Below, one piece after another: positions 334 through 27,605 of a stretch of DNA of 32,901 nucleotides. The translations under genes were made by a program, and so were the position numbers. Every line of letters begins with the position of its first letter. Position 1 is the stretch's first letter. Where the stretch lies: positions 1 through 32,901 of the forward strand of contig CAMHCD010000005.1 of assembly GCA_946183545.1 (NCBI GenBank). The letters are read 5' to 3'. The notes beneath the pieces were generated by a model that was not told where the DNA came from, searched no databases, and was given only the letters and a program-made list of their open reading frames with translations. This DNA is from an uncultured Clostridia bacterium. Lineage in GTDB: Bacteria > Bacillota > Clostridia > Oscillospirales > Acutalibacteraceae.

Positions 334-603
334 ATTTTGCCATAATAAAATCTTGCTGTCACATCATGCCCGATTGTCCAAAATAAAAATATTTTTCGAT
401 TTTCGGCGAAAAATTGCATATTCGTATGCAATTTTTTCCGTTTTTACCGGGTATAGTGAAAGGGTTTTTACGCACGCATTGAAAAAAGCGGAGCTAACGT
501 CAAAGGGAGGGCGGCGAAAAATATAAAGACGGTTGACGGTACAACCGTAGCAAGGCGCCTGAAACAGGAACCTTTCTTTGTGACGGTCACGCTGATTTGA
601 TCT
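334..603. other. Left flank of the phage cassette, no confident gene
   Basis: This stretch holds an AT-rich segment with a hairpin (409-437). It also holds a frame open on the plus strand from 460 to the TGA at 598-600 that has no ATG, GTG or TTG. The end of that frame reads TVDGTTVARRLKQEP and stops 3 bases before the terminase small-subunit GTG, which is the spacing expected of an upstream operon gene. AAAGGG and GGGAGG motifs lie within it. It could be a small phage gene with an unusual start, or a decayed remnant. No convincing promoter for the cassette was found here; a TATAGT at 452-457 lacks a matching -35 box. Confidence 0.3.
409..437. terminator. Bidirectional hairpin terminator with TTCG loop
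   Basis: A perfect 12 bp stem (409-420 with 425-436) closes a TTCG tetraloop, with A-rich and T-rich arms so that a U-tract is produced in either direction. It lies between the broken dockerin gene and the phage cassette and probably insulates one from the other. Confidence 0.6.
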
Positions 604-1119
604 GTGCAAAAACGCCTTTCAAAACAGGAGGTGGAATTCATCAAAAAAAGATTACAAAAAAAGCAGGCAGCGTTTTGCGGCTATCTGGTCAGTACGGGCG
701 ACCCCGTAACGGCGGCAAGACGCGCGGGGTTTGAAAAAAACCCGGAGCAGGCGGCGGAGGAGCTGCTGTGCTGCGCTACGGTACTTGAGGAGGTTCAGCG
801 GCTGACAGAGCAGCGCGAAAAAACGTTTGCAAAGCTTGCGTCCGCAGGTTACCGCCGGCTGGCGTTCGGCAGCATTGCGGACGCGGTGTCGCTGTTGTTT
901 ACGGAGCAGCCCACGCTCCGTCAGCTTCAGGAGATGGATTTGTTTTTGGTGTCCGAAATCAAAAAACCAAAGGACGGTATGCTCGAAATCAAGTTTTTTG
1001 ACCGCCTAAAGGCGCTTGAAAAGCTTGCGCAGGGCGACTGTGAACAGGGCGGAGTAGCGGACCTGTTCGACGCTATCGGACACAGCGCAAAGGCAGTGAG
1101 CGACGTTGAACACGATTAA
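604..1119 (+). CDS. Phage terminase small subunit
   Basis: A 171-residue protein of the size and layout of phage small terminases, which recognise DNA and recruit the large subunit for packaging. The N-terminal helix-turn-helix region contains the family-like pattern AAFCGYLVSTGDPVTAARRAGF (about residues 20-40), comparable to the 'F..yYL...n.t.AA..AGy' pattern of the family. Its identity is supported by the terminase large subunit that overlaps its 3' end by 14 bases. The GTG at 604 has no ribosome-binding site. A strong AGGAGG (626-631) sits 8 bases before an in-frame ATC at 640 and overlaps an in-frame GTG at 631, so the true start may lie inside the listed span. It is the first confident gene of the particle operon. 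Confidence 0.75.
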   Translation: MQKRLSKQEVEFIKKRLQKKQAAFCGYLVSTGDPVTAARRAGFEKNPEQAAEELLCCATVLEEVQRLTEQREKTFAKLASAGYRRLAFGSIADAVSLLFTEQPTLRQLQEMDLFLVSEIKKPKDGMLEIKFFDRLKALEKLAQGDCEQGGVADLFDAIGHSAKAVSDVEHD

Positions 1120-2356
1120 GTCTTTTTCTCCAAAGCAGATGGAGGTTTTAAGCTGGTGGCACCGCAACTCGCCCCATTACGGCAAGGACGCGCTGATTTG
1201 TGACGGCGCGGTGCGCAGCGGAAAAACCTTTTGCATGTCGCTCAGCTTCATTCTGTGGAGCTTCTACGCTTTTGACGGCGCGGACCTTGCGCTCTGCGGC
1301 AAGACCATCAATTCGCTGCGGCGCAATATGGTAACGCCCGTTATACCGCTGCTGCATTCGCTCGGCTTCAGCTGCCGGGAAAAGCTCAGCCGCAACATAT
1401 TGCTTGTGAGCTGCGGCGAGGTCACCAACCGATTTTACCTGTTCGGTGGCAAGGACGAAGGCTCCGCGTCGCTTATCCAAGGCATGACGCTTTCAGGCGT
1501 GCTGTTTGACGAGGTGGCGCTTATGCCGCGTTCCTTTGTGGAACAGGCAATGGCGCGCTGCTCGGTTCAGGGCTCGCGGTTTTGGTTCAACTGCAATCCC
1601 GAGCACCCCGAGCACTGGTTCTACAACGAGTGGATAAAGCAGGAGCGGCGCAAAAACGCCCTGCACCTCCACTTTATGATGGAGGACAACCCTTCGCTGA
1701 GCGACAAGGTCAGGCGCAGATACGAGCGGCTGTACAGCGGAGTGTTTTACGAGCGCTTTGTGTTGGGCAAGTGGGTAGCGGTTTACGGAGCGGTCTATCC
1801 GTTTATGGCTCAGGAGAGCATGTACTGCAAGCCGCCGCAGGACGGCTTTGACAGCTATGCTGTATCCTGCGACTACGGTACGGTCAATCCCACCTCGGCA
1901 GGGCTGTGGGGCAGGCGTCAGGGCGTGTGGTACCGCTTGGACGAGTATTATTTTGACTCTCGAAAGGAAGGTTATCAGCGTACCGACGAAGAGCATTATA
2001 AGGCTTTGTGCGAGCTTGTCGGCGACCGCCGCGTAAGCATTGTGACGGTAGATCCCTCGGCGGCAAGCTTTATCGAGGTAATACGCAGGCACAAGCGCTT
2101 TGCCGTGCGCCCTGCAAACAATCAGGTGGTCAACGGAATAAGAAGGGTGTCGCAGGCGTTAAAGGACGGAAGTATCAAGATCTGTTCCAACTGCAGCGCG
2201 GCACGGCGCGAATTTTCGCTTTACAAGTGGGACAGCGCACGCCGCGAGGACGTTCCCGTAAAGGAGAACGACCACGCAATGGATGACATCCGGTATTTTG
2301 TGACTACCATCATGGACGGCGGCAAAAGCACCTTTGCCGTAGCCGCCGGCAGATAG
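1106..2356 (+). CDS. terL: Phage terminase large subunit (packaging ATPase/nuclease)
   Basis: A 416-residue DNA-packaging motor. The Walker A motif GAVRSGKT is at residues 34-41 and the Walker B motif VLFDEV near 133-138. The C-terminal RNase H-like nuclease shows acidic residues in SCDYGTVNPTS, VTVDPSAAS and HAMDDIRY. Before Walker A, SPKQMEVLSWW is the usual adenine-binding segment of the family. Translation starts at TTG 1106 inside the small-subunit gene; an ATG at 1139 would delete the conserved SPKQ segment, so TTG is preferred. All motifs appear intact and no frameshift is seen, which argues that the packaging function is under selection. Confidence 0.93.
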   Translation: MNTIKSFSPKQMEVLSWWHRNSPHYGKDALICDGAVRSGKTFCMSLSFILWSFYAFDGADLALCGKTINSLRRNMVTPVIPLLHSLGFSCREKLSRNILLVSCGEVTNRFYLFGGKDEGSASLIQGMTLSGVLFDEVALMPRSFVEQAMARCSVQGSRFWFNCNPEHPEHWFYNEWIKQERRKNALHLHFMMEDNPSLSDKVRRRYERLYSGVFYERFVLGKWVAVYGAVYPFMAQESMYCKPPQDGFDSYAVSCDYGTVNPTSAGLWGRRQGVWYRLDEYYFDSRKEGYQRTDEEHYKALCELVGDRRVSIVTVDPSAASFIEVIRRHKRFAVRPANNQVVNGIRRVSQALKDGSIKICSNCSAARREFSLYKWDSARREDVPVKENDHAMDDIRYFVTTIMDGGKSTFAVAAGR

Positions 2357-2366
2357 GAGGTACCAT

Positions 2367-3515
2367 ATGTTTGGTAAACCAAGGCGCGGAAAAACAGCCA
2401 AGGGCTTTGTTCAGACCGTGCCGAAAACCAAGCAAAACGCCGCGGCGCTCAGCTTTTTGCGGGCGGAATACCAAAGCAGAGCGGAACGGGCGCTGTATGA
2501 CAGCATGCGCGCATCCGTTCCCATAATCGACGCGGCTATCGAAAAGATCATCAGGCTTATCGGAGGTTTTACCGTGAGGACAGGCAACCGCAGCAGCCAG
2601 GCGATCGCCGACATGTTCATCAAAAATGTGCAGTCAAACGGCACAGCGCTGGGCATGCCGCACTTTGTGTTCAGCTATCTGGACAGCCTGCTGAGCTACG
2701 GCGAGGCGGTCGGGGAGATGATCCCCGATTCACGGCACACCGGTATAACCGCGCTGTATAACGCGTCGCTTGACGATGTAGTTATCCGCGCCGGCAGTTC
2801 TCCGCTGGAGCCCGTGGTGTATTTAAACGACGCGGCGGGATTGAAGCCCGTAAAAAACCAAAAGCTGATCGTCGCCGCGTTGCTCAACCAGCAGCCCGGC
2901 ACAGTCAGGGGCAAATCCCTTATCAGCGGTCTGCCGTTTATGAGCGAGATCATGCTGCGCATTTTCAGCTCGGTAAAAACAAACTGGGAGCGAGTGGGCG
3001 ACGTGCGGTTTGCCGTTACCTACACGCCCGACGCAGGCGAGAGCTTCAGCGAGGAAAGCGCGCGTCAGATCGCCGACGAGTGGAGAAAGGCGATGCGCAG
3101 CGACAACGTATGCGATTTTGTGTCTGTGGGCAACGTCAGCATAAAGGCTATAGGAGCGGATATGGCTGTTCCGGACTGCGAGGTACCGCTTAGAGCGGTG
3201 TTGGAGCAGATCCTAAGCAAGCTCGGTATACCGCCGTTTTTGCTGGGCATTTCTTGGTCGAGCACCGAGCGAATGAGCGAGCAGCAGGCGGACATCCTTA
3301 CAAGCGAGCTGGAATACTACCGAGCCGCGGTGGAGCCGGCTATCCGCAGGATCGTCGAGACGCATCTGCGCCTTAACGGATACACCGACAACGTGCAGGT
3401 TTTGTGGGACGATATCAATTTACAGGATACCGTAGAGCTGTCGCAGGCAAGGCTCAACAACGCCCGCGCGATGCAAATCGAAAAAGAGATCGGTTGGGAG
3501 GAAGAAGATGTGTAA
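2367..3515 (+). CDS. Phage portal protein
   Basis: A 382-residue protein directly after the large terminase, with an AGGAGG ribosome-binding site 7 bases before the ATG. The sequence has the portal pattern: an N-terminal clip/wing region (ASVPIIDAAIEKIIRLIGGF), a stem segment (ILSKLGIPPFLLGISWSSTERMSEQQADI) and helical crown (YRAAVEPAIRRIVETHLRL). The portal dodecamer forms the capsid vertex through which the terminase pumps DNA and to which the neck attaches. It is somewhat shorter than typical SPP1/HK97 portals of 420-500 residues. Its end overlaps the protease gene by 8 bases, implying coupled translation. Confidence 0.88.
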   Translation: MFGKPRRGKTAKGFVQTVPKTKQNAAALSFLRAEYQSRAERALYDSMRASVPIIDAAIEKIIRLIGGFTVRTGNRSSQAIADMFIKNVQSNGTALGMPHFVFSYLDSLLSYGEAVGEMIPDSRHTGITALYNASLDDVVIRAGSSPLEPVVYLNDAAGLKPVKNQKLIVAALLNQQPGTVRGKSLISGLPFMSEIMLRIFSSVKTNWERVGDVRFAVTYTPDAGESFSEESARQIADEWRKAMRSDNVCDFVSVGNVSIKAIGADMAVPDCEVPLRAVLEQILSKLGIPPFLLGISWSSTERMSEQQADILTSELEYYRAAVEPAIRRIVETHLRLNGYTDNVQVLWDDINLQDTVELSQARLNNARAMQIEKEIGWEEEDV

Positions 3516-4488
3516 AAGAGGAGTAACAAAGGGCGCTTTTATTGCGTCCGAAGAAGCGCCGTGCGACACTGTCAGCGCGGAGGAGCTTGAGCTCATCAAC
3601 GCCTACACACGCAAGCCGCTCGGCGCAGAGGATGTGTATGTGTTTTCGGTCGTGTTGTGTGACAACGACGTTGACCGCGACGGCGAACGTTTTCCCGTTG
3701 AATCGCTGTTTGCGCTTGAGAAGCTCTTTGTAGGCAAAACGGGAATATTTGACCATGACCCTACTGCCAAAAACCAGACCGCGCGTATTTTTGCGTGCAA
3801 AACAGAGGCAGTAGAAGGCAAGACCACCGCCACGGGCGACGACTATTTCCGTCTTAAAGCACGCGCCTATATGCCGCGCTGCGCGGAAAACGAAAAGCTG
3901 ATTTTGGACATCGACAGCGGCATAGTGCGCGAGGTCAGCGTCGGCTGCGCGGTGGAGTCGGTCAAGTGCAGCGTCTGCGGCGAGGATATAGCCGTATGTC
4001 CCCACAAAAAGGGCGGGGAGTACGGCGGCAAGCTGTGCTGCGGCGAGCTGACCGCACCGTATGACGCGTACGAATTCAGCTTTGTGGCGGTTCCCGCCCA
4101 AAAGGACGCCGGCGTTATCAAGTCGGCATACGGAAAGGAAGTAAGTATGGAAAGGATCATGAAGCAGTTGGCGCAGCAAAAGAGCGTCAATCTGAGCGCG
4201 CAGGAGTGCAAAAAGCTGCTCGGCTACATTGAGGAGCTAAAGCAGAGCGCCAAGGACGGCGTGTATTACCGCGACAGCCTCCAAAGCGAGGTGCTCAGGC
4301 TTTCGGCGGCGCTGCAGCCCGATATCTCACGCGAGACAATGGAGGCTTTGACAAAAACCATGAGCGTGGCTCAGCTCAACGAGTTTAAGCGCGCCTACGA
4401 AAACAAGCTGGACGAGGCTTATGCTCCCGTTCCGCAGCTCTATCAAAAATCAGACAACACCGTTTTTAACGGTCAGTTTACCATTTAA
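3508..4488 (+). CDS. Prohead maturation protease with scaffold-like C-terminal region
   Basis: A 326-residue protein. Residues 1-205 resemble the HK97/U35-type prohead serine protease: DRDGERFPVESL, the candidate catalytic histidine in IFDHD, and the candidate catalytic serine in VREVSVGC. A cysteine-rich insert (CSVCGEDIAVCPH, then CCGEL) follows the serine and looks like a metal knuckle; such an insert is familiar in some Firmicute phage proteases. From residue 214 the sequence becomes Gln/Lys/Glu-rich and helical (AQQKSVNLSAQECKKLLGYI), as expected for a scaffold or delta domain. The position between portal and capsid genes fits. The ATG follows an AGGAAGAAG-like site within the portal gene's end. 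Confidence 0.83.
   Translation: MCKRGVTKGAFIASEEAPCDTVSAEELELINAYTRKPLGAEDVYVFSVVLCDNDVDRDGERFPVESLFALEKLFVGKTGIFDHDPTAKNQTARIFACKTEAVEGKTTATGDDYFRLKARAYMPRCAENEKLILDIDSGIVREVSVGCAVESVKCSVCGEDIAVCPHKKGGEYGGKLCCGELTAPYDAYEFSFVAVPAQKDAGVIKSAYGKEVSMERIMKQLAQQKSVNLSAQECKKLLGYIEELKQSAKDGVYYRDSLQSEVLRLSAALQPDISRETMEALTKTMSVAQLNEFKRAYENKLDEAYAPVPQLYQKSDNTVFNGQFTI
4147..4488 (+). CDS. Possible nested scaffolding protein, in-frame internal start in the protease gene
   Basis: An in-frame ATG at 4147 (Met 214 of the protease) is preceded by GGAAAGGAAG at an ideal distance. It begins exactly where the protease domain ends and the charged helical region starts. Internal initiation here would make a 113-residue scaffold. 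Lambda uses the same design, with Nu3 nested in gene C. The motif and spacing are seen directly; that it is used is inference. Confidence 0.4.
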   Translation: MERIMKQLAQQKSVNLSAQECKKLLGYIEELKQSAKDGVYYRDSLQSEVLRLSAALQPDISRETMEALTKTMSVAQLNEFKRAYENKLDEAYAPVPQLYQKSDNTVFNGQFTI

Positions 4489-4502
4489 CGGAGGTAGAAA
4501 AG

Positions 4503-4838
4503 ATGAATGTAAATTTTAACGGCGCAGGAGAAAATGTTTTGACCTTTATCGCGGCGGATTCTGTCACCGAGGCAGGTACGCTTGTAAAAGTAAGCGCAAA
4601 CGGAACCGTGGCAAAGTGCTCAGCGGGCGACGCGTTTTGCGGCGTTACCCTCGCGGTACGCAACGGCTACGCGGCTGTTCAGATGTCCGGCTATGCGGCG
4701 CTGCCCGCAGCGGAACAGATCACAGTCGGCTATCAAACGCTTGCTGCAAATGCGGCAGGCAAGGCAGCTGTCAGCGAAAACGGCAGAGAGCTGCTCGTGA
4801 TCGATTCCACCGCTACTCAGGTCGGCGTGATTCTTTAA
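4503..4838 (+). CDS. Capsid decoration protein (head stabiliser-like)
   Basis: A 111-residue, glycine/alanine/valine-rich beta protein with a strong ACGGAGG ribosome-binding site, between the protease/scaffold and the major capsid gene, where lambda gpD-like or DUF2190-like decoration proteins are usually encoded. Phrases such as EAGTLVKVSANGTVAKCSAGDAFCGVTL fit the DUF2190 pattern of alternating strands, in which 'g.vvkl..ngtv..a.agd...Gv' recurs. Such proteins trimerise on the capsid surface and stabilise packaged heads. Function is assigned from composition and position rather than from a diagnostic motif. Confidence 0.68.
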   Translation: MNVNFNGAGENVLTFIAADSVTEAGTLVKVSANGTVAKCSAGDAFCGVTLAVRNGYAAVQMSGYAALPAAEQITVGYQTLAANAAGKAAVSENGRELLVIDSTATQVGVIL

Positions 4839-4856
4839 TAAAACGGAGGTAATAAT

Positions 4857-5861
4857 ATGGCACATTTTGAGAATATTACTATTGAAAAGGGTATGTATCA
4901 GACAAAGGGCGGCTTGACTCAGGCGCTTGAACAGCTTGACCCGTCCGAAAACTACGTCGGTACCTCGCTTGAGGGCTTGGACGCTTTTTCACGTCAGCTA
5001 AAGCGTTTTGACATTCGTGTCAGCGGCAGCGGCAGCGACTGTGTGGAAAAGTTTTTCCAGACCTCCAACTCCGCCGCGCTCTTTCCCGAGTATATCGGCA
5101 GAGCCGTTCGTCAGGGTATGGAGCGCGCAAACATCCTGCCCGAGCTCGTAGCGACCGTTACCGACATCGAAGGCATGGATTACCGCAGCATCGCCTCGAC
5201 TCCGTCCGAGGACGACAGAGACCTTAAGGTGGTTGCGGAGGGCGCTGCTATTCCGCAGACTACCGTTTCTACCAAGGAGAATCTTGTAAAGCTCCACAAG
5301 CGCGGCAGAATGCTGGTGGCTTCCTACGAGGCGCTGCGATTCCAGAGGCTCGATTTGTTCACCGTTACCCTTAATCAGATCGGCGCGCACATTGCGCGCG
5401 CTCAGATCAGGGATGCGGTCGACGTGCTGCTCAACGGCGACGGCAACGGAAACGCTGCGGATAATGTTTCGGCAGCTACCTCGGGTACAGTCAGCTACGG
5501 CGATCTTGTCGCGCTGTGGGCGGCTATGTCACCATATGAGCTGAACACCATTCTGGCTCCTACCGGCGTTATGCAGCAGATCCTTTCACTGCAGCAGATG
5601 CAGGACGCTCAGGCAGGTCTGGAATTCCACGGCACCGGCAAGATGATCACACCCTTAGGCGCAACGCTGCTGCACGCTCCCGAGGTGACCGCAGGCACCG
5701 TCATCGGCTTAGACAAAAACTGCGCCCTTGAGATGGTACAGGCGGGCGGAGTAGTTACCGACTACGACAAGCTCATCGACCGTCAGCTTGAACGCGCGGC
5801 GATCACCTGTACTGCCGGCTTTGCAAAAATCTTTGACGAAGCGACAATGACCTTGTCCTGA
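4857..5861 (+). CDS. Phage major capsid protein (HK97 fold likely)
   Basis: A 334-residue protein with the strongest ribosome-binding site of the operon (ACGGAGG, 7-base spacing), as expected for the most abundant head protein. It follows the protease and decoration genes in standard head-module order. The N-terminal 60-70 residues are charged and could be the removable delta segment. The central part (AALFPEYIGRAVRQGMERANILPELVA, then a YRSIAS segment) and the C-terminal part (LGATLLHAPEVTAGTVIGLDKNCALEMVQAGGVVTDYDKLIDRQLE) read like the A- and P-domains of HK97-fold coats. No truncation is apparent. Confidence 0.85.
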   Translation: MAHFENITIEKGMYQTKGGLTQALEQLDPSENYVGTSLEGLDAFSRQLKRFDIRVSGSGSDCVEKFFQTSNSAALFPEYIGRAVRQGMERANILPELVATVTDIEGMDYRSIASTPSEDDRDLKVVAEGAAIPQTTVSTKENLVKLHKRGRMLVASYEALRFQRLDLFTVTLNQIGAHIARAQIRDAVDVLLNGDGNGNAADNVSAATSGTVSYGDLVALWAAMSPYELNTILAPTGVMQQILSLQQMQDAQAGLEFHGTGKMITPLGATLLHAPEVTAGTVIGLDKNCALEMVQAGGVVTDYDKLIDRQLERAAITCTAGFAKIFDEATMTLS

Positions 5862-5877
5862 TAACGGAGGCGGTCGC

Positions 5878-6237
5878 TTGAACATTGCAAATATTACACG
5901 GCGTTTTGCGCTGCTTTGCGGCATGGAGTTGAGCGAAGCGGCAAGGTGGCAGTCGATTATAAAGGACGCTATGGAGTACATACGCAGGCGTTTGATCAAA
6001 CAGCCCTCCGGCGACAGCGACACAGCACGGTTAGAAATGCTTTGCGCGGCATATGCTTATAAGACGTACTGCCTGTGCAATGACAACGGAGTTACCGCCT
6101 TTACCGCGGGCGAGGTACATATTGCCTCGCCCGTAAGGGACGGCAACAAGGCGGAGGAGTTGTGGCAAAAGCTTTTGAATGAATCGGCAGATTTGATATG
6201 TTCCGATCGTTATATCTTTGGCAGGGTGATAGAATGA
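5878..6237 (+). CDS. Head-tail connector / head completion protein
   Basis: A 119-residue, mainly helical protein immediately after the major capsid gene, the usual place for gp6/gp15-type adaptor proteins that dock on the portal. It starts at TTG 5878, 8 bases after ACGGAGG. Helices around residues 15-40 (LSEAARWQSIIKDAMEYIRRRL) and 50-70 (TARLEMLCAAYAYKTYCL) are consistent with that alpha-helical adaptor fold. Its stop codon overlaps the next start in an ATGA arrangement. The assignment is by position and secondary-structure character; no diagnostic motif is seen. Confidence 0.6.
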   Translation: MNIANITRRFALLCGMELSEAARWQSIIKDAMEYIRRRLIKQPSGDSDTARLEMLCAAYAYKTYCLCNDNGVTAFTAGEVHIASPVRDGNKAEELWQKLLNESADLICSDRYIFGRVIE

Positions 6238-6590
6238 GCATTTTTAATACGGTAGGCGAAACCATCAGGCGTTACGGATCTCAGGTCACTATAGTGCAGA
6301 ACGGCGACGAGATCCAAACCAGCGCGTTTGTGGAGCCGCTGCGCTACCGCAACCGAATTTACATCGGCGGTCAGTACCATATGCTGGGCATGAACCGCCG
6401 TCAAAAGTACCTGTATATCGGCAGCGCGTCACACCGCCTGACAGAGAACGCATCCGTTATAGAGTCGCATGGAAACAAATACATCGTCAAACGGTGCGAA
6501 ACCTACTTTATCAAGGATTATCCGCTGTATGAATGGGCGATCCTGCTGCCTTTGGGCGAAAGAACGGAGGATGAGTATGGATCGGATTAA
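6234..6590 (+). CDS. Putative head closure / neck protein
   Basis: A 118-residue protein. The start chosen is ATG 6234, which overlaps the preceding TGA and follows an AGGGTG site; a longer reading from 6198 would add 12 residues from inside the upstream gene. The sequence is beta-rich (SQVTIVQNGDEIQTSAFVEPLRYR), consistent with the stopper proteins that close the head after packaging, but identification is positional. The 3' end overlaps the next gene by 14 bases. Confidence 0.6.
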   Translation: MSIFNTVGETIRRYGSQVTIVQNGDEIQTSAFVEPLRYRNRIYIGGQYHMLGMNRRQKYLYIGSASHRLTENASVIESHGNKYIVKRCETYFIKDYPLYEWAILLPLGERTEDEYGSD

Positions 6591-7020
6591 AGAGATGACG
6601 GACGGCATCATCAGGAGGCTTAAGACCTGCCCCGGCTTGGAGGATGTTCGGTTCGTCAGGGAATACGGCGCTCACGACATGGAGGATCCCGTCACCGGCT
6701 GGATGGCCGCGGTAAGGATAACCGGAACAAAGCTCAGCCGTCAGTATTTGGGCGGCTATTTGACTGACGACGTGCGGGGCGACCGTTACCGCGCTACGGT
6801 GGAGCTATGCGTTTATGCTCCCGCTCGGGGGAGCGGAACGGGCCTGTCGGAAAAGGTCAGCGCAGTGCTCGCAGGATTAAAGGCGGCGGACTCCGACCGC
6901 TTGATCACGGATATCAGCGCGTCCGCTATCCGCTTTGATCAGGACTTGCAGGCGATTTACCGCACAGTGACGCTCGGTCTGGACTTTTGTTTGACAGAGG
7001 AGGGGCATCATGCTGTTTGA
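6577..7020 (+). CDS. Putative tail completion / neck protein
   Basis: A 147-residue protein starting at ATG 6577, 6 bases after ACGGAGG (6564-6570); the in-frame ATG at 6571 abuts the ribosome-binding site and is less likely. The mixed alpha/beta sequence with MTDGIIRRLKTCPGLEDVRFVREYG at the start and RATVELCVYAP in the middle resembles tail-terminator type proteins that follow head-closure genes in siphoviruses and myoviruses. It overlaps the next gene by 11 bases. No definitive motif is present. Confidence 0.55.
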   Translation: MDRIKEMTDGIIRRLKTCPGLEDVRFVREYGAHDMEDPVTGWMAAVRITGTKLSRQYLGGYLTDDVRGDRYRATVELCVYAPARGSGTGLSEKVSAVLAGLKAADSDRLITDISASAIRFDQDLQAIYRTVTLGLDFCLTEEGHHAV

Positions 7021-7375
7021 GTTGGCAAAGGGCGTTGACGCTGTGGTGACGCTGGACGGAACGGTACTCGGCGGCGTTTGCGGCGCGGTCGTAAACGAAA
7101 AGACCACGGTCGATAAAATCGAATGTTATCTTACCGATATCCCTGCGGCGCAGATCGTAAGCCGCTCATACGAAATAATCCTGACGCTTGAAACCGCGGA
7201 CTTTGCCGCTTTTGCCGACCGTAGTTTTAATGTGTTGTGCATCAGCTGCGGCGGCGTCACACAGCGGTTTGAAAACGGCGCGGTCAAAAGCGTCAAAACA
7301 GATATTCCTCCTGCCGGGGTCATCAGCCACAAGGTAACGCTTGAAGCGGCGCAAAGGAGTGTTGATCATGAATGA
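7010..7375 (+). CDS. Short beta-rich structural protein, possibly tail tube or tube initiator
   Basis: A 121-residue protein with a strong GAGGAGG ribosome-binding site. I do not recognise its family. It is almost entirely beta-strand in character (VDAVVTLDGTVLGGVCGAVV, then IECYLTDIP and YEIILTLETADF) and sits exactly where the sheath, tube, chaperone and tape-measure genes of a contractile phage would be. Tail tube and hub proteins share a compact beta-barrel of similar size, so a tube or tube-initiator role is plausible, but this is inference. Its stop overlaps the next small ORF. Confidence 0.55.
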   Translation: MLFELAKGVDAVVTLDGTVLGGVCGAVVNEKTTVDKIECYLTDIPAAQIVSRSYEIILTLETADFAAFADRSFNVLCISCGGVTQRFENGAVKSVKTDIPPAGVISHKVTLEAAQRSVDHE

Positions 7376-7484
7376 AGAAGAAACACGGTTCCCGTTTGCG
7401 GACTATGACGGTCTTAGCGAGGAACTTGAACTGGAAAGTATACGGTACAGCAGACGTTTGGATGAGGAAGAGGAGGCGGTGTAA
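7368..7484 (+). CDS. Very small acidic phage protein
   Basis: A 38-codon ORF that starts at ATG 7368, 8 bases after AAAGGAGT, overlaps the previous gene by 8 bases and ends directly before the next GTG start. Its Glu/Asp-rich sequence (MNEEETRFPFADYDG, ending RRLDEEEEAV) suggests a flexible acidic tail or adaptor. It occupies the slot of the tail assembly chaperone genes of ordinary tailed phages but is far shorter. The ribosome-binding site and tiling support its reality; its function is unknown. Confidence 0.6.
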   Translation: MNEEETRFPFADYDGLSEELELESIRYSRRLDEEEEAV

Positions 7485-8000
7485 GTGAACCTTAACGCAA
7501 TGAGATACAAGGGTGTGCAGTGGCGGCATAACCCTCGCGAAATAAGCTTTGCCTGTGATAAATACGTCACCGAAAACTCAACGGCGAACGGCAAAGCTGA
7601 GGTACAAAGCACGGGCAGAAGGAACCTGCGAATAACAGGCAAGGGTGAGCTTTACGGCGCGGACTGCATGGAACAGTTTGAACAGTTGTTTGCGCTGTTT
7701 CGCCGGGGAGGAAGCGGTATTTTGAGCATTGCAAAGCTCAGTCCAATATACGCGGTGTTTGAAAGCCTCAAGATCACCGGCAAGCCAAAGCCCGACGTGC
7801 TTACATATGAATTTGTCTTTCGCGAGATGATGGAGAAAAAACGCGCGGAAAAGCCCGTGTGCTGCTATCCCGAGGAAGGCGACCGCCTGTGGGATGTGAG
7901 CTATCGTTATGAAATCGCGGTGGAAACCCTGTTGGAGCTTAATCCCGAGATCAAGCGTCCCGACCTTCCGCTTAACGGAAAGGCGGTCGTGCTGTGCTGA
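7485..8000 (+). CDS. LysM-domain baseplate protein (XkdP/Mu gpN-like)
   Basis: A 171-residue protein starting at GTG 7485, 8 bases after AGGAGG. The N-terminal 110 residues resemble the beta-rich domain seen in phage baseplate proteins of the XkdP/DNA-circularisation type. The C-terminal 45 residues are a LysM motif (GDRLWDVSYRYEIAVETLL and LNPEIKRPDLPLNGKAVVL). In PBSX-like and R-type contractile tails such LysM proteins lie next to the hub gene and help assemble the tail tip. The same order is seen here, with the gpD-like hub starting 7 bases before this gene's end. Confidence 0.8.
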   Translation: MNLNAMRYKGVQWRHNPREISFACDKYVTENSTANGKAEVQSTGRRNLRITGKGELYGADCMEQFEQLFALFRRGGSGILSIAKLSPIYAVFESLKITGKPKPDVLTYEFVFREMMEKKRAEKPVCCYPEEGDRLWDVSYRYEIAVETLLELNPEIKRPDLPLNGKAVVLC

Positions 8001-8935
8001 GCTATTACGCGGTCATGCAGGACGGCAGCGAGGTTGAGCTGACGGCGGTGCGTTCCGCGGTCATCGACTGTGATGTTGATGTTCCTGCCGCAAGCGCAAG
8101 GCTGCTGTTATCATATGACGCGCGGCTGAGAAACAACGCGCGTGTGCTGACGGCAAAGGACGGTGCGGATACTGTGTTTTGCGGTGATATAGACAGCATT
8201 GTAAGCGAGGCGGACAGCGGTGGAGCGTCCATGAAGCTATCTGCTCGCAGCGCGGCGTCACGCCTGCTCGACAACGAGGCGGAGCCGCTCGATTACCGTG
8301 ACCCGTCCGCCGAGCTCATTTGCCGCCGCCACGCAAAGCCCTTTGGTTTGATCGTAGCGGACGGGGACAGATCGTACCTGCCTGAGCGTATGCGTATTCA
8401 AAAGGGAATGTCGCACTGGCAGGTTTTGGAGTGCTTTTGCCGCGCCAAGTACAACAGCACGCCGCACGTAAGCGCGGACGGCACGCTGTATCTAAAGGGA
8501 CTGCCGCCCGGCGACACGGCGGTGTTTGACAACAGCGGAGCAGGTATCCCTTACCACTCACTTAAAGAAAGCCGCAACCTTTACCGCCTGCTGTCCGATA
8601 TCCGCATTAAGACAAAGGCAACGGGCGGATACAGCTCGGTCTCGGTAAATCCGAACCCGGGCTGCGGCGGTATCGTAAGGCGCAGATATGTTGATGTGTC
8701 CGCCGATAACCGCTCTATGGATACGGTGCGTCAGATGCTTGACGCAAGCAACCGCAGGGGTTATTTGCTTAGTCTGTCCTGCGGCGGCTGTTGTACGCAT
8801 CTGGTCGGAAGCTCCGCCGAGGTGCGCGACACTGTGCTCGGTGTGATATCCGACTTGACCGTGTCGGGGGTCAGATACAAGGCGAACAGCGGCGGCGAAT
8901 TTTCGGAAATTACATTTAAAAAGGAGAAGTTTTGA
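7994..8935 (+). CDS. Baseplate hub protein, gpD / XkdQ-like
   Basis: A 313-residue protein that starts at GTG 7994 and overlaps the LysM gene by 7 bases. It has the layout of the late control gene D family (P2 gpD, T4 gp27, PBSX XkdQ): an N-terminal split-barrel region (AVIDCDVDVPAASARLLLSYD, CGDIDSIVSE), a middle LysM-like helical patch (IQKGMSHWQVLECFCRAKY), and a C-terminal beta region. Hub trimers cap the tail tube and bind the spike. Its neighbours, LysM before and spike after, match the baseplate module of contractile tails. Confidence 0.8.
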   Translation: MLSYYAVMQDGSEVELTAVRSAVIDCDVDVPAASARLLLSYDARLRNNARVLTAKDGADTVFCGDIDSIVSEADSGGASMKLSARSAASRLLDNEAEPLDYRDPSAELICRRHAKPFGLIVADGDRSYLPERMRIQKGMSHWQVLECFCRAKYNSTPHVSADGTLYLKGLPPGDTAVFDNSGAGIPYHSLKESRNLYRLLSDIRIKTKATGGYSSVSVNPNPGCGGIVRRRYVDVSADNRSMDTVRQMLDASNRRGYLLSLSCGGCCTHLVGSSAEVRDTVLGVISDLTVSGVRYKANSGGEFSEITFKKEKF

Positions 8936-9264
8936 TGTGGTTGATGAGTTACATGACAAAGAATTCCATCGAAAAGCCCTCTGCGGTCAAAGGCAGCGTC
9001 GGTCACGGCGCGGAGGGTACGACCGTGACCGCGTCGGGAGAGCATAAAAACCTGCCCTGCTGTTTTCCCTACGGTATTGTCAGCATACCGCCCGAGGGTC
9101 ACAGCGCTGTCGTGCTTCCGCTTGAGGACGGCGAGGTAGCGCTTGGGGTCACCGATAACTCCGCGGCGGTCGAGCCCGGAGAGGTGGCGCTGTTTTCCAA
9201 GGGAGGAGCGTCGCTTGTCCTGAAAAACAACGGCGACGTAGTAATAAACGGGCAGGTGTTTTGA
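8935..9264 (+). CDS. Baseplate spike / assembly protein, gpV-like
   Basis: A 109-residue protein starting at ATG 8935 after AAGGAGAAG, sharing one base with the stop of the hub gene. The middle reads PEGHSAVVLPLEDGEVALGV and the end SLVLKNNGDVVINGQVF, the OB-fold plus short beta-helix ending typical of gpV/gp45-type spikes in their minimal form. Spike proteins sit at the tip of contractile injection machines. This one is short compared with P2 gpV (about 210 residues) and lacks an obvious metal-binding HxH tip. Confidence 0.72.
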   Translation: MWLMSYMTKNSIEKPSAVKGSVGHGAEGTTVTASGEHKNLPCCFPYGIVSIPPEGHSAVVLPLEDGEVALGVTDNSAAVEPGEVALFSKGGASLVLKNNGDVVINGQVF

Positions 9265-9584
9265 TGCGCGACATAAAACTTGAAAACGGAGATGTGTTTG
9301 TTGACGTTACAGGCGGCTCCGTGCTGCTTAGCGAGGAGGAGTCCGCTGTTCAGCGCGCGCTGATACTTGCCGGAGCGCACAGGGGCAGTTTTGTTTATAA
9401 CCGCAGCCTCGGCTCGGACTACCGTCCGGAAATGGATGAAATGCAGGCGGAAGCGGTCATAAACGAGGCGTTTGCAGATGACGAAAATATGTATATCCGT
9501 GTGTCGGAAAGCGGTGAAGCTCTTATAGTCGATATCCCGACAAAAAACGGATCAGTGCAGCGGGAGGTGCATTTTTACGGATAG
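9264..9584 (+). CDS. Baseplate wedge protein, gp25 / gpW-like
   Basis: A 106-residue protein starting at ATG 9264, one base overlapping the spike stop. It has the signature of the gp25/gpW wedge family (DUF2634-like): GDVFVDVTGGSVLLSEEESAVQRALILAGAHRGSFVYNRSLGSDY, where the conserved 'G.f.yn...G.d' turn is clear. This subunit links hub and wedge and, in contractile tails, begins sheath assembly. Its 3' end overlaps the reading frame of gpJ. Confidence 0.78.
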   Translation: MRDIKLENGDVFVDVTGGSVLLSEEESAVQRALILAGAHRGSFVYNRSLGSDYRPEMDEMQAEAVINEAFADDENMYIRVSESGEALIVDIPTKNGSVQREVHFYG

Positions 9585-9606
9585 TTACGAAACAATATAC
9601 AACAGG

Positions 9607-10635
9607 ATGAAGGCGGACTACACCGAGCGCAGCGGAGTGGTGTTTGACGAGGCAAGCGATATAGCGATAAAGCTCAGGGTGCTGGCAGGAGAGATATTCA
9701 ACGCCTATTCACAAACCGAGTGGCTAAAGCGTCAGATGTTCGCCTCCACCGCTACGGGCGAGTTTTTGGATCATATCGCCGAGCAGCGCGGACTAACGCG
9801 CCGGGCCGCGACAAAGGCTCAGGGAACCCTGACCTTTTCCGTTAACGAAACAAAAAGCTACCCCGTAACGATCCCCTCGGGAACGGTAGTGGCAACGACA
9901 GGCGCACAGCCTGTTAGGGTATACACTACCGAGGATGCGGTGTTGCCGCTCGGTACACTGTCGGTGGACGTCAGAGCCGAGGCGGAGCTGGCGGGCTTCG
10001 GCGGCAATATTTTGATAGGCACCGCGACCGTACCGGTCAGCATGCCTGCCGAGCTTGACAGCGTCAGAAACCGGAGCGTATTTGAGGGCGGCGCCGACAC
10101 CGAGGCGGATAATTCGCTGCGTAAGCGGATCAAGGATACCTACTACTGTGTGCCTAACGGCATGAACAAGGCGTATTACATTCAGCTTGCGCAAAGCGTT
10201 GACGGTGTTGACAGAGCCGGAGTTGTTACCTATGCTCGCGGCGCCGGTACTATCAACGTGTATGTTAACAGCTACGACGGTACCATCGGTCAGGCGGTCA
10301 TTGACGAGGCAAGGGCGCTAATCCTGCGCAACCGCGAGATCAATGTAGATGTTGAGGTGCTGCCGGCGGTCGGCACAAGCTACGACATGGCTGTTACAGT
10401 TGAGGCTAAGGCAGGCTACACCGCTCAGGAGGTGCGCGAGCTTTGCACGAACGCTTTTGAGGAATATCTAAGCACCATTCCCTTGGGCGGCACGCTTTAT
10501 CTAAGCGCCCTCGGCAAATATCTGCTGGATACGGATTGCATTGAAAACTATGTGTTCGACATGTCGATGAGCAACATGACCGCCGCAGGCTCGCAGTTCT
10601 TTATAAGCGGCGACGTTGATATCGAGGTGACCTGA
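9607..10635 (+). CDS. Baseplate J family wedge protein
   Basis: A baseplate J/gp47-like protein of 342 residues from ATG 9607. Recognisable segments are the helical start with GEFLDHIAEQRGLTRRAATKAQG, the beta domain (YPVTIPSGTVVATTG), and the C-terminal part (RKRIKDTYYCVPNGMNKAYYIQLAQSVDGV). ATG 9607 has only a poor ribosome-binding site. The same frame stays open upstream as TDSYETIYNRM, which looks like a real gpJ N-terminus, and GGGAGG (9562-9567) precedes ATT 9571 and ACG 9577. Translation therefore probably starts at a rare codon inside the gp25 gene. J proteins form the wedge around the hub together with gpI, encoded next. Confidence 0.88.
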   Translation: MKADYTERSGVVFDEASDIAIKLRVLAGEIFNAYSQTEWLKRQMFASTATGEFLDHIAEQRGLTRRAATKAQGTLTFSVNETKSYPVTIPSGTVVATTGAQPVRVYTTEDAVLPLGTLSVDVRAEAELAGFGGNILIGTATVPVSMPAELDSVRNRSVFEGGADTEADNSLRKRIKDTYYCVPNGMNKAYYIQLAQSVDGVDRAGVVTYARGAGTINVYVNSYDGTIGQAVIDEARALILRNREINVDVEVLPAVGTSYDMAVTVEAKAGYTAQEVRELCTNAFEEYLSTIPLGGTLYLSALGKYLLDTDCIENYVFDMSMSNMTAAGSQFFISGDVDIEVT

Positions 10636-11117
10636 TGACAAGCTATGGATCTATGACGCAAAAGCTTGCGCCGCTCGGCATTTACGATTTGGAGGACGGA
10701 ACGCGCAACGCTCTGGAGCTTAGGGTGTTTGCCGACGAGCTCGACCGACTGTTTGACACACTGGATGAGATGGAGCGCGAATTCTTTATCGCCACGGCGC
10801 AAAGCTGGGGAATAGCCATGCGCGAGCGCTTTACGGGCAAAGAAAAAAGCAGCCTGCCTGTGGAAAAACGCAGAGAGCTGCTTACGATTGCGGAATATGT
10901 GACCGGAGTTGATCCTACGCCGCAGGGCTTTGAGGATTTTGTGCGCGTTTGCGGTATAGAGGATTTTACATATCAGGAGGTCGGCTCGCACGCCAAGCTT
11001 AACCTGACAATACGGGAAGACCTTGACAGCGGCGAAAAAAAGCTGCTGGAGGAACGCATAAACGCGTATATCCCGGCGCACTGCACGGTGAATATCCGCT
11101 ACACTCCGAATACTTGA
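10635..11117 (+). CDS. Tail protein I / YmfQ (DUF2313)-like baseplate protein
   Basis: A 160-residue protein whose ATG overlaps the gpJ stop (TGATG). It matches the YmfQ/DUF2313 style of gpI: an N-terminal helix with LAPLGIYDLEDGTRNALELRVFADELDRLFDTLDEMEREFF, a central AEYVTGVDPTPQGFEDFVRVCGI, and a beta-rich end with IPAHCTVNIRY. gpI completes the wedge with gpJ and usually carries the tail fibre. No fibre gene follows; the cassette ends here and a hairpin lies 7 bases downstream of the stop. Confidence 0.8.
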   Translation: MTSYGSMTQKLAPLGIYDLEDGTRNALELRVFADELDRLFDTLDEMEREFFIATAQSWGIAMRERFTGKEKSSLPVEKRRELLTIAEYVTGVDPTPQGFEDFVRVCGIEDFTYQEVGSHAKLNLTIREDLDSGEKKLLEERINAYIPAHCTVNIRYTPNT

Positions 11118-11160: not shown

Positions 11161-11640
11161 CTATTTTCTTAGATTGTTTCGGTCGAGCATATATGCCTTG
11201 CAGTAGTGAGGATTGCTGTCGTCGCTGATGTAGTAGACGACATTGTCGTTTAGATATATCCTCAAATCTTGGGTCTGCTCACCGTTGCCGTCGCTGAAGA
11301 TGACGTTCTTGAAGTTGGGGTTGGTAACGGTAATGGAATATACTGCCCAACCGTAGGTCTTGTTGCCGGCGCCGACCTGTTCCACAGGCTTTTTGGCAAG
11401 GGTCGATGTGCCTGATATGTGTGTGACCTGTAATGAAGATCGCGTCCTTGTAGGTTTCCAAAATGGATTTCAGCTGATTGGTGGAATCGTATCCGTTGCT
11501 GAGCGGTATGTCGTAGTAGTTATTAACCGGGTTATCTCCGGCGCCGTAGTTTTGAAACAGCGCGTGCTCTATGATGTAGATATTATGACCGTCGCCGGAA
11601 TATCTGATTAGACGCCTTCGGATGACAAAAGTTGCGGTAT
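11161..11640 (-). pseudogene. Truncated, frameshifted metallophosphoesterase with carbohydrate-binding-like tail
   Basis: On the minus strand one frame encodes NNYYDIPLSNGYDSTNQLK and IFITGHTH, the C-terminal metal-binding GHTH motif of calcineurin-like phosphoesterases. The protein then continues in another frame (ISGTSTLAKKPVEQVGAGNK ...) to the stop at 11161-11163. The break lies at a (TG)4 run, 11418-11425; one more repeat unit would restore GHTHISGTS. The end contains FKNVIFSDGNGEQTQDL, similar to starch-binding modules of the CBM25/26 type. The N-terminal catalytic half is missing: the sequence decays beyond about 11640, where the promoter of the divergent vanZ-like gene begins. Order and orientation allow it to be the 5' part of the gene whose 3' end is the dockerin fragment at 124-333. 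Confidence 0.65.
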
Positions 11641-11645
11641 TATTC

Positions 11646-11674
11646 TTGACAAGCCGTGCGGATTCAAATACAAT
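11646..11674 (+). promoter_or_regulatory. Sigma-A promoter of the vanZ-like gene
   Basis: A perfect -35 TTGACA (11646-11651) is separated by 17 bases from -10 TACAAT (11669-11674). It predicts a transcript start near 11681 and a leader of about 70 bases before the TTG start at 11750. Confidence 0.75.
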
Positions 11675-11749
11675 AGAATACAACGCCGTACTGTGTTGAG
11701 TACGATCGTGCGGCGCACCCTTTGACACTGAAGGGAGAGTGAGTTAAGG

Positions 11750-16596: not shown

Positions 16597-16893
16597 TTAC
16601 TGAATGTCGAGATAATTTGAGAAGCCTGTGATCCTCAGGATCTCCATCACCTTTTTGTTGACGTTCCTGATCGTAAGCCCGTCCTTGTCGCTGAGCAGGT
16701 CGTTGGCGTTGAGGATAGCTCTCAGCGCGGCGGAGCTGACATACTCTACGCCTGCCATATCCAATATCAGGGTGTCGTTAGCGTCGCACAGCTCGGTGAT
16801 TTTTGTTTCAAATGCTTCGACAGTGACATGGTCGATCTTGCCCTCCGGCGCGATGACCTGCTTGCCGTTTTCTTCATAAACATTAATTGTCAT
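16597..16893 (-). CDS. STAS-domain anti-sigma factor antagonist-like protein
   Basis: A 98-residue single STAS domain of the SpoIIAA/RsbV kind. These small cytoplasmic proteins switch partners: unphosphorylated, they bind an RsbW-type kinase; phosphorylated on a Ser/Thr, they release it; a PP2C phosphatase resets them. The family pattern TLILDMAGVEYVSSAALRAIL is intact, with phosphorylatable serines (SSAAL) at the usual place. The ATG overlaps the end of the capA-like gene by 11 bases and follows AAGGAG. It is the last gene of an operon that also contains two HATPase kinase-like domains and a SpoIIE phosphatase, which are its obvious candidate partners. No sigma factor is nearby. Confidence 0.9.
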   Translation of the reverse strand: MTINVYEENGKQVIAPEGKIDHVTVEAFETKITELCDANDTLILDMAGVEYVSSAALRAILNANDLLSDKDGLTIRNVNKKVMEILRITGFSNYLDIQ

Positions 16894-18079
16894 TTGTTTT
16901 CTCCTTTGTATCTGATTCTCTCAGCAGATCGCTGAGGATTTGGTTACCGACTTCATTGAATTCCTCGTTGCGAAGGAACATCTGTATTCCGAGCAGATGA
17001 CTCCGCGAGTAGGAGGCTTTTAAATACTCCGCGAACTCCGAAGGGGAGAGGGACGCGCGTTTTTCATCGTCTGTGGGGTTCTTTCCGCGCAATGCCCAGA
17101 AGAAGGTGGTCATCCAGTTGGCGCAGTCCCTGCCGAAGCCTTCCTCAAATTCCTTTGCGGCGGCTTCGTCGCCTGCGATCAGCGCGTCGTGGGTCTTGCT
17201 GCGTGCGTAAAATGCTTCAAGCTCCTGCTTGTCGTCGTAGACGCAACCTTTTTCGGTGCGGAGGATGCGGTTAGGCTTTACGGTGAAGCCGTCGTCGCCG
17301 AAATCAAGCTCCAGCACCAAGCCTTCGGCAAGCAGCGGCGTGACCTGCGGACGGAAGTGAAAGCAGAAGTTGCCCTGACCGTAGAGGAAGTACGCGCCGT
17401 TGTAGCGCTCCTCCTCGCCGATTGCGTGGGTATGCTGTGATATGACTACGTCTGCGCCGTTATCCGCCATGCGACGGAAGCGCCGGCGCATGATATCGCT
17501 GTTATAGTGCGTCCCCTCAATACCGCCGTGATAGAACACGATAAGATAGTCGCAGGACTCTTTAAGGGCATTGATCTCGCCGAGGACGCGGTATTCGTCG
17601 TAGAGGTTCACGCCGGGACGATCCTTTTCGGGCGCGTTCTCAAACCGTTCGGTGGTGTTGTATAGGACTATCCTCCTGCCGCCGTGCTCGATGGTGACAT
17701 AGCTCTTGACCGAGCTTTCGTTATCGCCCCAGCCAAAGTATCCGATGCCGTTGTCGTTGAGCGTCTTGCAGGTGTCGCGGTAGCCCTGTACGCCGTAGTC
17801 CATCGAGTGGGTGTTGCCGAGGGTGGCGTAGTCGATGCCGAGCGCTTTGATCCCCTTGATCGTAGCGGTCGGCGCGTGGATAGCGGGTCCGATCTTCTCA
17901 ATCGGGGTGTCGCTGTCGGTAAAGCAACCCTCAAGGTTGCATACGCGATAGTCTGCGGACGCAAACAGCTCGCACAATCGGTCGCCGAACAGCGCTTTGG
18001 CGTCTCCCGCGCTGAACAGGTCATAGTTGCATAGCATCGGAAGCGTATCGCCTGCGATGATTATTTTCGTTTTTGCCAT
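16883..18079 (-). CDS. CapA-family (PGA_cap) metallophosphoesterase-like protein, cytoplasmic
   Basis: A 398-residue protein with the CapA fold. The motifs are IIIAGDTLPM at the start, CNLEG, LGNTHSMDYG, FYHGGIEGT and VISQHTHAIG, all of which supply metal ligands in the calcineurin-like superfamily. Classical CapA acts at the membrane in poly-gamma-glutamate capsule formation, but this one has no signal peptide or transmembrane helix and no capB/capC neighbours. The last 100 residues are helical and not part of the core. It starts 8 bases after the SpoIIE stop with an AGGAGG site. Co-transcription with an NRPS suggests a tailoring or regulatory role, which is inference. Confidence 0.82.
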   Translation of the reverse strand: MAKTKIIIAGDTLPMLCNYDLFSAGDAKALFGDRLCELFASADYRVCNLEGCFTDSDTPIEKIGPAIHAPTATIKGIKALGIDYATLGNTHSMDYGVQGYRDTCKTLNDNGIGYFGWGDNESSVKSYVTIEHGGRRIVLYNTTERFENAPEKDRPGVNLYDEYRVLGEINALKESCDYLIVFYHGGIEGTHYNSDIMRRRFRRMADNGADVVISQHTHAIGEEERYNGAYFLYGQGNFCFHFRPQVTPLLAEGLVLELDFGDDGFTVKPNRILRTEKGCVYDDKQELEAFYARSKTHDALIAGDEAAAKEFEEGFGRDCANWMTTFFWALRGKNPTDDEKRASLSPSEFAEYLKASYSRSHLLGIQMFLRNEEFNEVGNQILSDLLRESDTKEKTNDN

Positions 18080-18087
18080 ACTGCCTC

Positions 18088-19782: not shown

Positions 19783-19886
19783 CAACAGGGTGTAGATAAA
19801 GTTGATCCTCTGTTCGGTCGTCTTTAGCTGTTTGGCTACGTAGTCATCAGTTTTTTTCGATTTTAAGCTGATAAGAACTCACCGCC

Positions 19887-27571: not shown

Positions 27572-27605
27572 GGGTATCACTCCTTATGTATAATTAATCA
27601 TTTAA

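Follow-up and report, generated by a model that had tools for sequence, protein, structure and literature searches.

We propose that a gene cluster at positions 604 to 11,117 of contig CAMHCD010000005.1, from an uncultured member of the Acutalibacteraceae, is probably a domesticated, vertically inherited phage morphogenesis operon, and that it belongs to a host-run, multi-locus particle system resembling the gene transfer agents (GTAs). The window, i.e., the whole stretch analyzed, is the entire contig (C5; 32,901 bases) of a 2.0-Mb metagenome-assembled genome (MAG) of 91.6% completeness, and its base 1 is a contig end. The cluster comprises 17 intact open genes on the same strand, most of which abut or overlap; a sequence-only reading of this DNA had their intactness right, and for most their overlap, but counted sixteen. 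Family matches and uniformly open reading frames bear out its description of a head and packaging module running directly into LysM, hub, spike, gp25, gpJ and gpI genes. Neither a sheath nor a tape-measure gene lies between the neck and baseplate of this cluster, and, as that reading had also held, no integrase, lysis or repressor gene was found adjoining it in the flanks of the window. The features, with the evidence for each, are:

414 to 431, plus strand: palindrome TTGCATA-N4-TATGCAA, candidate operator (a single exact copy in the genome of the window)
449 to 464, plus strand: conserved box GGGTATAGTGAAAGGG 3′ of the palindrome (composite-pattern scan)
604 to 1119, plus strand: small terminase TerS with an N-terminal DNA-binding domain (PF03592; 2cmp, 4zc3)
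1106 to 2356, plus strand: large terminase TerL (family matches)
2367 to 3515, plus strand: portal (phrog_30703, 4e-102; genus-wide)
3508 to 4488, plus strand: head protein, probably a protease/scaffold going by position and a weak protease match (phrog_16951)
4503 to 4838, plus strand: decoration/virion structural protein (phrog_4588)
4857 to 5861, plus strand: major capsid protein (phrog_3922, PF25209)
5878 to 6237, plus strand: neck gene 1 (by position; kept in 55/55 genus regions)
6198 to 6590, plus strand: neck gene 2 (by position; 55/55 genus regions; the true start may be a few codons downstream)
6571 to 7020, plus strand: neck gene 3 (by position; start set from relatives)
7010 to 7375, plus strand: predicted tail tube protein, 121 residues (hhalign 98.8%; fold match to the phiCD508 tube, Z 11.6)
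7368 to 7484, plus strand: conserved 38-residue stub, probable tape-measure remnant (motif and profile matches in genus loci)
7485 to 8000, plus strand: LysM tail protein (family matches)
7994 to 8935, plus strand: baseplate hub (phrog_177)
8932 to 9264, plus strand: spike, Mu gp45-like (weak family matches)
9261 to 9584, plus strand: gp25-like sheath initiator/wedge (weak PF10934 match plus position)
9607 to 10635, plus strand: baseplate wedge gpJ (PF04865, 6e-45)
10635 to 11117, plus strand: baseplate gpI/Mu gp48-like (family matches)

The 121-residue open reading frame (ORF) between the neck and the baseplate is, judged by its modeled fold and its place, the tail tube. When its family profile is compared with the tube of sheathed relatives, the two align over their full length (98.8%, E 5e-17, hhalign), and its AlphaFold model (predicted local distance difference test score, pLDDT, 84.8) matches phage tail-tube and Hcp-type folds (e.g., the phiCD508 tube, Z 11.6, and the tube of RcGTA, 6tba, Z 11.0); it thus pairs a tube/Hcp fold with a position after the neck or sheath. 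Neither of the two tube profiles had a significant sequence match in the PDB, whereas the comparison of folds did find a match. If this ORF is the tube, only the sheath, chaperone and tape measure are missing from the gap, where the sequence-only reading had listed the tube as well. The 38-residue ORF beside it had been read at 7372-7488; we reject that frame because the conservation sits in the frame at 7368-7484 (MNEEETRFPFADYDGLSEELELESIRYSRRLDEEEEAV). In the latter frame the gene is recovered at 35 loci by a motif resembling ELExESxRYSRRLxEEEE, and at 53 of 55 loci of the genus, in many cases partially, by a hidden Markov model. It resembles the C-terminal end of a protein of ~194 residues at the tape-measure position in sheathed relatives, and this likeness suggests that it is probably what remains of a tape measure. 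Among the sheathed loci of Oscillospiraceae (L125-L171), a long tape measure is seemingly absent, and the protein of ~194 residues stands in its place in the loci that were read.

The arrangement is a property of the genus. A portal homolog occurs in 113 of 120 genus genomes, one per genome except in genomes where the homolog is split into pieces, and TerL is also missing from most of the portal-negative ones. Across 55 genus regions each gene is found wherever the contig is not cut, with a coverage of at least 80% of its model save for one tube at 73% and the stub, which is too short for this threshold (found in 53 regions, at 80% in 34). The spacing from capsid to LysM is 2,538-2,704 bp (mean 2,646, standard deviation 35) and the span from TerS to gpI 10.3-10.6 kb. 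This recurrence of the same genes, order and gap in 55 genomes indicates that the arrangement is more than chance. Carriers of the cluster that have names are, among others, Ruminococcaceae bacterium P7 (L104), Lachnoclostridium sp. MSJ-17 (L097) and MAGs of rumen 'Ruminococcus'. About half of the genus loci (L172-L191, L217-L231), though none in the clade of the window, feature a 153-residue fibre-like gene after gpI. We also considered that the sheath might have moved elsewhere in the genome and reject this: a model that does recognize the sheathed relatives finds a sheath domain anywhere in the genome in only 4 of 130 genus genomes, and the genome of the window is not one of them.

The cluster genes are intact, descend vertically and evolve under purifying selection. 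The same host genes recur beside them, namely spmA/spmB and a dCMP deaminase upstream and a PPIase and Mfd downstream, each at ~15-23 loci (names assigned from reading the sequences), and other subclades of the genus have different shared host neighbors. In the window, the right flank belongs to the host (VanZ, endonuclease IV and a glycosyltransferase); the claim that both flanks are host-like remnants cannot be made for the left one, which stops at the contig end and contains the conserved palindrome. A frame-broken relic of a minus-strand gene (11161-11728) lies between the cluster and VanZ. A tree of the concatenated element genes from 39 genomes holds 15 of the 15 rpoB splits with support of at least 0.95 and displays no strong conflict, and element and rpoB distances are correlated (Mantel r 0.80-0.82), with none of 999 permutations as high. 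The ratio of nonsynonymous to synonymous substitution rates (dN/dS) is 0.02-0.26 in seven close pairs for all genes, including those of the baseplate (about 0.025-0.19 in the genus). These values agree with the earlier suggestion that the intactness of the structural genes reflects selection, and they contradict a silent decay in other strains. The cluster accordingly has several of the marks expected of a GTA: it is single-copy, host-fixed and vertically inherited, its structural genes are intact and selectively constrained, and no mobility genes of its own adjoin it. That it might instead be a recent prophage remnant or the product of a local deletion of the tail region is scarcely credible to us. 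One could cite the want of autonomous phage functions next to the cluster in favor of a remnant, but the same short gap, with no sheath and tape-measure genes at this point, is common to all 55 genus relatives (55/55 loci), and intact genes, a host-congruent tree and a dN/dS far below one refute both versions. The sequence-only reading had offered a clean deletion alongside a domesticated particle with a very short tail, and the genus-wide gap, vertical descent and purifying selection favor the latter.

Upstream of TerS we uncovered a putative control sequence, in which the palindrome at 414-431 is followed by a T-run and then by the box at 449-464. A loose form of the palindrome precedes TerS in 51 of 56 genus loci, as against 58 comparable palindromes in 2,240 random windows of 410 bp; shuffling predicts none in the window, and the exact form occurs once each in three genomes (G000, G068 and G117). 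The composite pattern of palindrome and box yields 36 matches in 23 of 120 genus genomes and none in the reversed control; since this strict motif reaches only these 23, the absence of a site from a genome means little. Some of the sites away from the cluster fit only the looser palindrome pattern. Most of the off-cluster genes and cassettes behind these palindromes sit among host genes, and they include lysis modules, such as an XhlA-like protein with Holin_SPP1 (5e-27) and a GH25 endolysin (3e-26; L428), an XhlA-like protein with a small protein and Amidase_3 (L427), a lone GH25 (L423) and Phage_holin_4_1 (6e-33; L385). Others encode BppU_N-type fibres (L383, L384, L386), a GDSL-domain protein (L391), VapE/D5 primases (L387, L390, L402, L403), DUF6291 proteins in several genomes, a DUF4417 protein and a tyrosine recombinase (L392/L393). 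The contig of Lachnoclostridium sp. MSJ-17 that bears the cluster matches genome G069, in which a holin and a fibre likewise lie behind the motif. We predict that the lysis, fibre and replication-type loci are co-regulated with the cluster. Some strict matches to the palindrome stand before ordinary host genes, and we treat these as chance or unrelated. The same palindrome with a similar box also precedes gyrB in several species (L364, L416, L418), which may hint at a signal read by the regulator.

Taken together, we envisage that the operon builds a head that packages DNA and carries a mere stub of a tail, probably of one or two tube rings on a contractile-type baseplate that, with the sheath lost, cannot contract. 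The dispersed lysis, fibre and replication-type genes seen in relatives would stand under the same palindrome and box, and this shared control sequence implies that a regulon run by the host probably turns on particle production at the same time as adsorption and lysis. The terminase would load the heads with host DNA, a fraction of the cells would lyse and free the particles, and these would bring host DNA to kin.

Several points weigh against this proposal. The system is known here from its genes alone, so that the packaging and transfer of host DNA are conjectural, and delivery would need a still hypothetical mechanism that works without a contracting sheath. TerS retains a recognizable DNA-binding domain: PF03592 is matched from profile position 1, and the TerS profile matches the DNA-binding-domain structures 2cmp and 4zc3. 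The TerS of reviewed GTAs has no N-terminal DNA-binding domain (PMC11841831), and for this difference we call the system GTA-like and not a GTA. Further, the genome of the window has the exact operator site at the cluster only, and its lysis and fibre partners are unseen in this incomplete MAG; the VapE/D5 and DUF6291 replication-type genes behind the motif are unusual for GTAs; and the occurrence of the motif before gyrB in a few species may make its specificity for this system doubtful.

Beyond the genus, the capsid gene is found in 102 of 395 genomes of the order (completeness at least 90%), among them 51 of the ~60 genomes of the same family, from some 25 genera. The other genera of the family fall into four tail states: sheath, tube and baseplate (one genus), tube and baseplate (about a dozen, two of them on weak tube matches alone), baseplate without a tube (five) and no baseplate (four). 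In the last of these, the operon goes from the neck genes, or from the neck and a fibre-like gene, straight into host genes. The tail state is uniform inside each genus, parsimony places a sheathed state at the root, and the head genes are retained while the tail shrinks. One genus (g65; L320, L341, L342) keeps the portal, capsid and baseplate, with TerS/TerL not seen upstream in the stretch examined. Related families retain sheathed versions, and an Oscillibacter-type genus has its own version in 53 of 81 unfiltered genomes. With sheathed versions in these families and in one genus of the same family, the loss of the sheath is, on comparative grounds, best placed in the deeper past, and a prophage-like contig (L082) with a sheath, a tube and the start of a tape-measure-like ORF suggests that a full tail was probably ancestral. 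Relocation of the baseplate is rejected for the no-baseplate genera, where none of 12 genomes (98-99% complete; the off-target entry G285 excluded) has a Baseplate_J gene anywhere. Selection persists in the reduced forms: where computable, dN/dS is 0.005-0.28 for tube-less pairs and 0.03-0.45 for no-baseplate pairs, the high values coming from the more distant pair.

This erosion bears on what the particle is for. In the no-baseplate genera, purifying selection still acts on terminase, portal and capsid and no Baseplate_J occurs anywhere, and the FpGTA particles of Faecalibacterium have no visible tail (PMC12946183). All this would suit a DNA-filled capsid as the end product, with the packaging, storage or release of host DNA under selection, a useless tail shed and DNA taken up by another route. 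For the present genus we nevertheless regard this as unlikely, because all its baseplate genes are intact and have the low dN/dS given above, implying that the short tail still matters. The retention of neck genes in genera without any baseplate, along with the repeated loss of tail parts, could alternatively mean that heads are finished with the tails of resident or infecting phages, in the style of capsid-forming phage-inducible chromosomal islands (cf-PICIs), with the stub or neck serving as a docking site. We think such borrowing quite improbable: unlike satellites, the element is fixed, vertically inherited and devoid of adjoining integrase or mobility genes, contractile resident helpers must be rare given the scarcity of sheath domains in the genus, and the baseplate genes, where present, are under purifying selection. 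A tailocin-like killing particle has the conserved myovirus-type baseplate in its favor, along with a gene order like that of PBSX. PBSX is described as acting as a tailocin (PMC12946183). However, with the sheath gone contraction is impossible, and a shrinking tail beside a retained head and terminase is the reverse of tailocins, which keep the tail and lose the head and packaging genes; we therefore reject this option as very improbable. Returning to the GTA-like operon, we tentatively consider a bolder, family-wide version, toward which we lean less than away: a host-owned regulon of separate modules under one control sequence, whose injection machinery has been dismantled stepwise (sheath, tube, baseplate) with packaging held under purifying selection. 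Its selected product would be a DNA-filled capsid, released by lysis and offering kin a tail-free route for DNA, e.g., capsid opening followed by natural uptake.

To our knowledge, few GTAs are known, and the present data point to a GTA-like system that is fixed in a large genus of the gut and rumen and in most of the family, where host-owned particles may commonly exchange genes. Since sister genera stand at every stage from a sheathed tail to no tail, the parts that a domesticated particle needs become directly testable, and the shared control sequence offers a handle for finding all parts of the system in any genome and for looking for its switch. Elsewhere in the window, a minus-strand host block (16597-21623) encodes a STAS protein and a capsule-type phosphoesterase, together with a SpoIIE phosphatase that is joined to an anti-sigma-type kinase domain and a MATE transporter with an anti-sigma-type (HATPase_c_2) domain attached, an odd partner-switching fusion. 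Adjoining it on the same strand (21638-27580) is a nonribosomal-peptide-synthetase-type enzyme of 1,980 residues, in which two AMP-binding stretches are accompanied by a condensation domain and, at the end, a reductase domain.

Among known systems, cf-PICIs likewise have their own heads and packaging and no tail of their own, as in the no-baseplate genera, but these satellites are mobile and sporadic, whereas the cluster is fixed, near-universal in its genus and has no adjoining integrase or replication genes. PBSX of Bacillus subtilis is chromosomally fixed and has the order portal-protease-capsid-neck-tube-LysM-hub-gp25-gpJ-gpI. The present cluster, also fixed in the chromosome, is collinear with it; contractile-tailed phages and prophages, PBSX among them, have a sheath and a tape measure (a long one in PBSX), and both are gone here, leaving a stub tail. 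PBSX packages 13.4 kb of chromosomal DNA (PMC12946183). Like RcGTA and other alphaproteobacterial GTAs, the cluster is vertically inherited, intact and probably part of a multi-locus system, and its predicted tube shares the fold of the RcGTA tube; unlike in RcGTA, whose tail is of another type, the baseplate is myovirus-type and without a sheath. The RcGTA TerS has no DNA-binding domain (PMC6854486). Literature searches for this element in Oscillospirales, Acutalibacteraceae and Ruminococcus bromii brought up one relevant paper, that on FpGTA (Borodovich et al., Nat Commun 2026, PMC12946183). It names only PBSX and FpGTA as Gram-positive GTAs and reports that Ruminococcus callidus packages host fragments of 4.6 kb and that Oscillospiraceae show GTA-like packaging, for which the genes were not identified. 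FpGTA of Faecalibacterium is the closest published case, the comparison being between a published description and an element seen here as genes only. Its tail-less-looking particles of ~40 nm hold 8.4-8.9 kb of random host DNA, and FpGTA I has ten ORFs, its baseplate genes lie in another operon, and its TerS is reported to have no obvious DNA-binding domain (PMC12946183). In both systems the head operon is fixed in the host, is about as long (10.5 kb in FpGTA) and is near-ubiquitous in a genus of related Clostridia; FpGTA has a second locus with more structural and lysis genes, and the present system probably has dispersed loci as well. In the present system, by contrast, the baseplate lies inside the head operon, TerS keeps its DNA-binding domain and the control sequence would link more than two loci.

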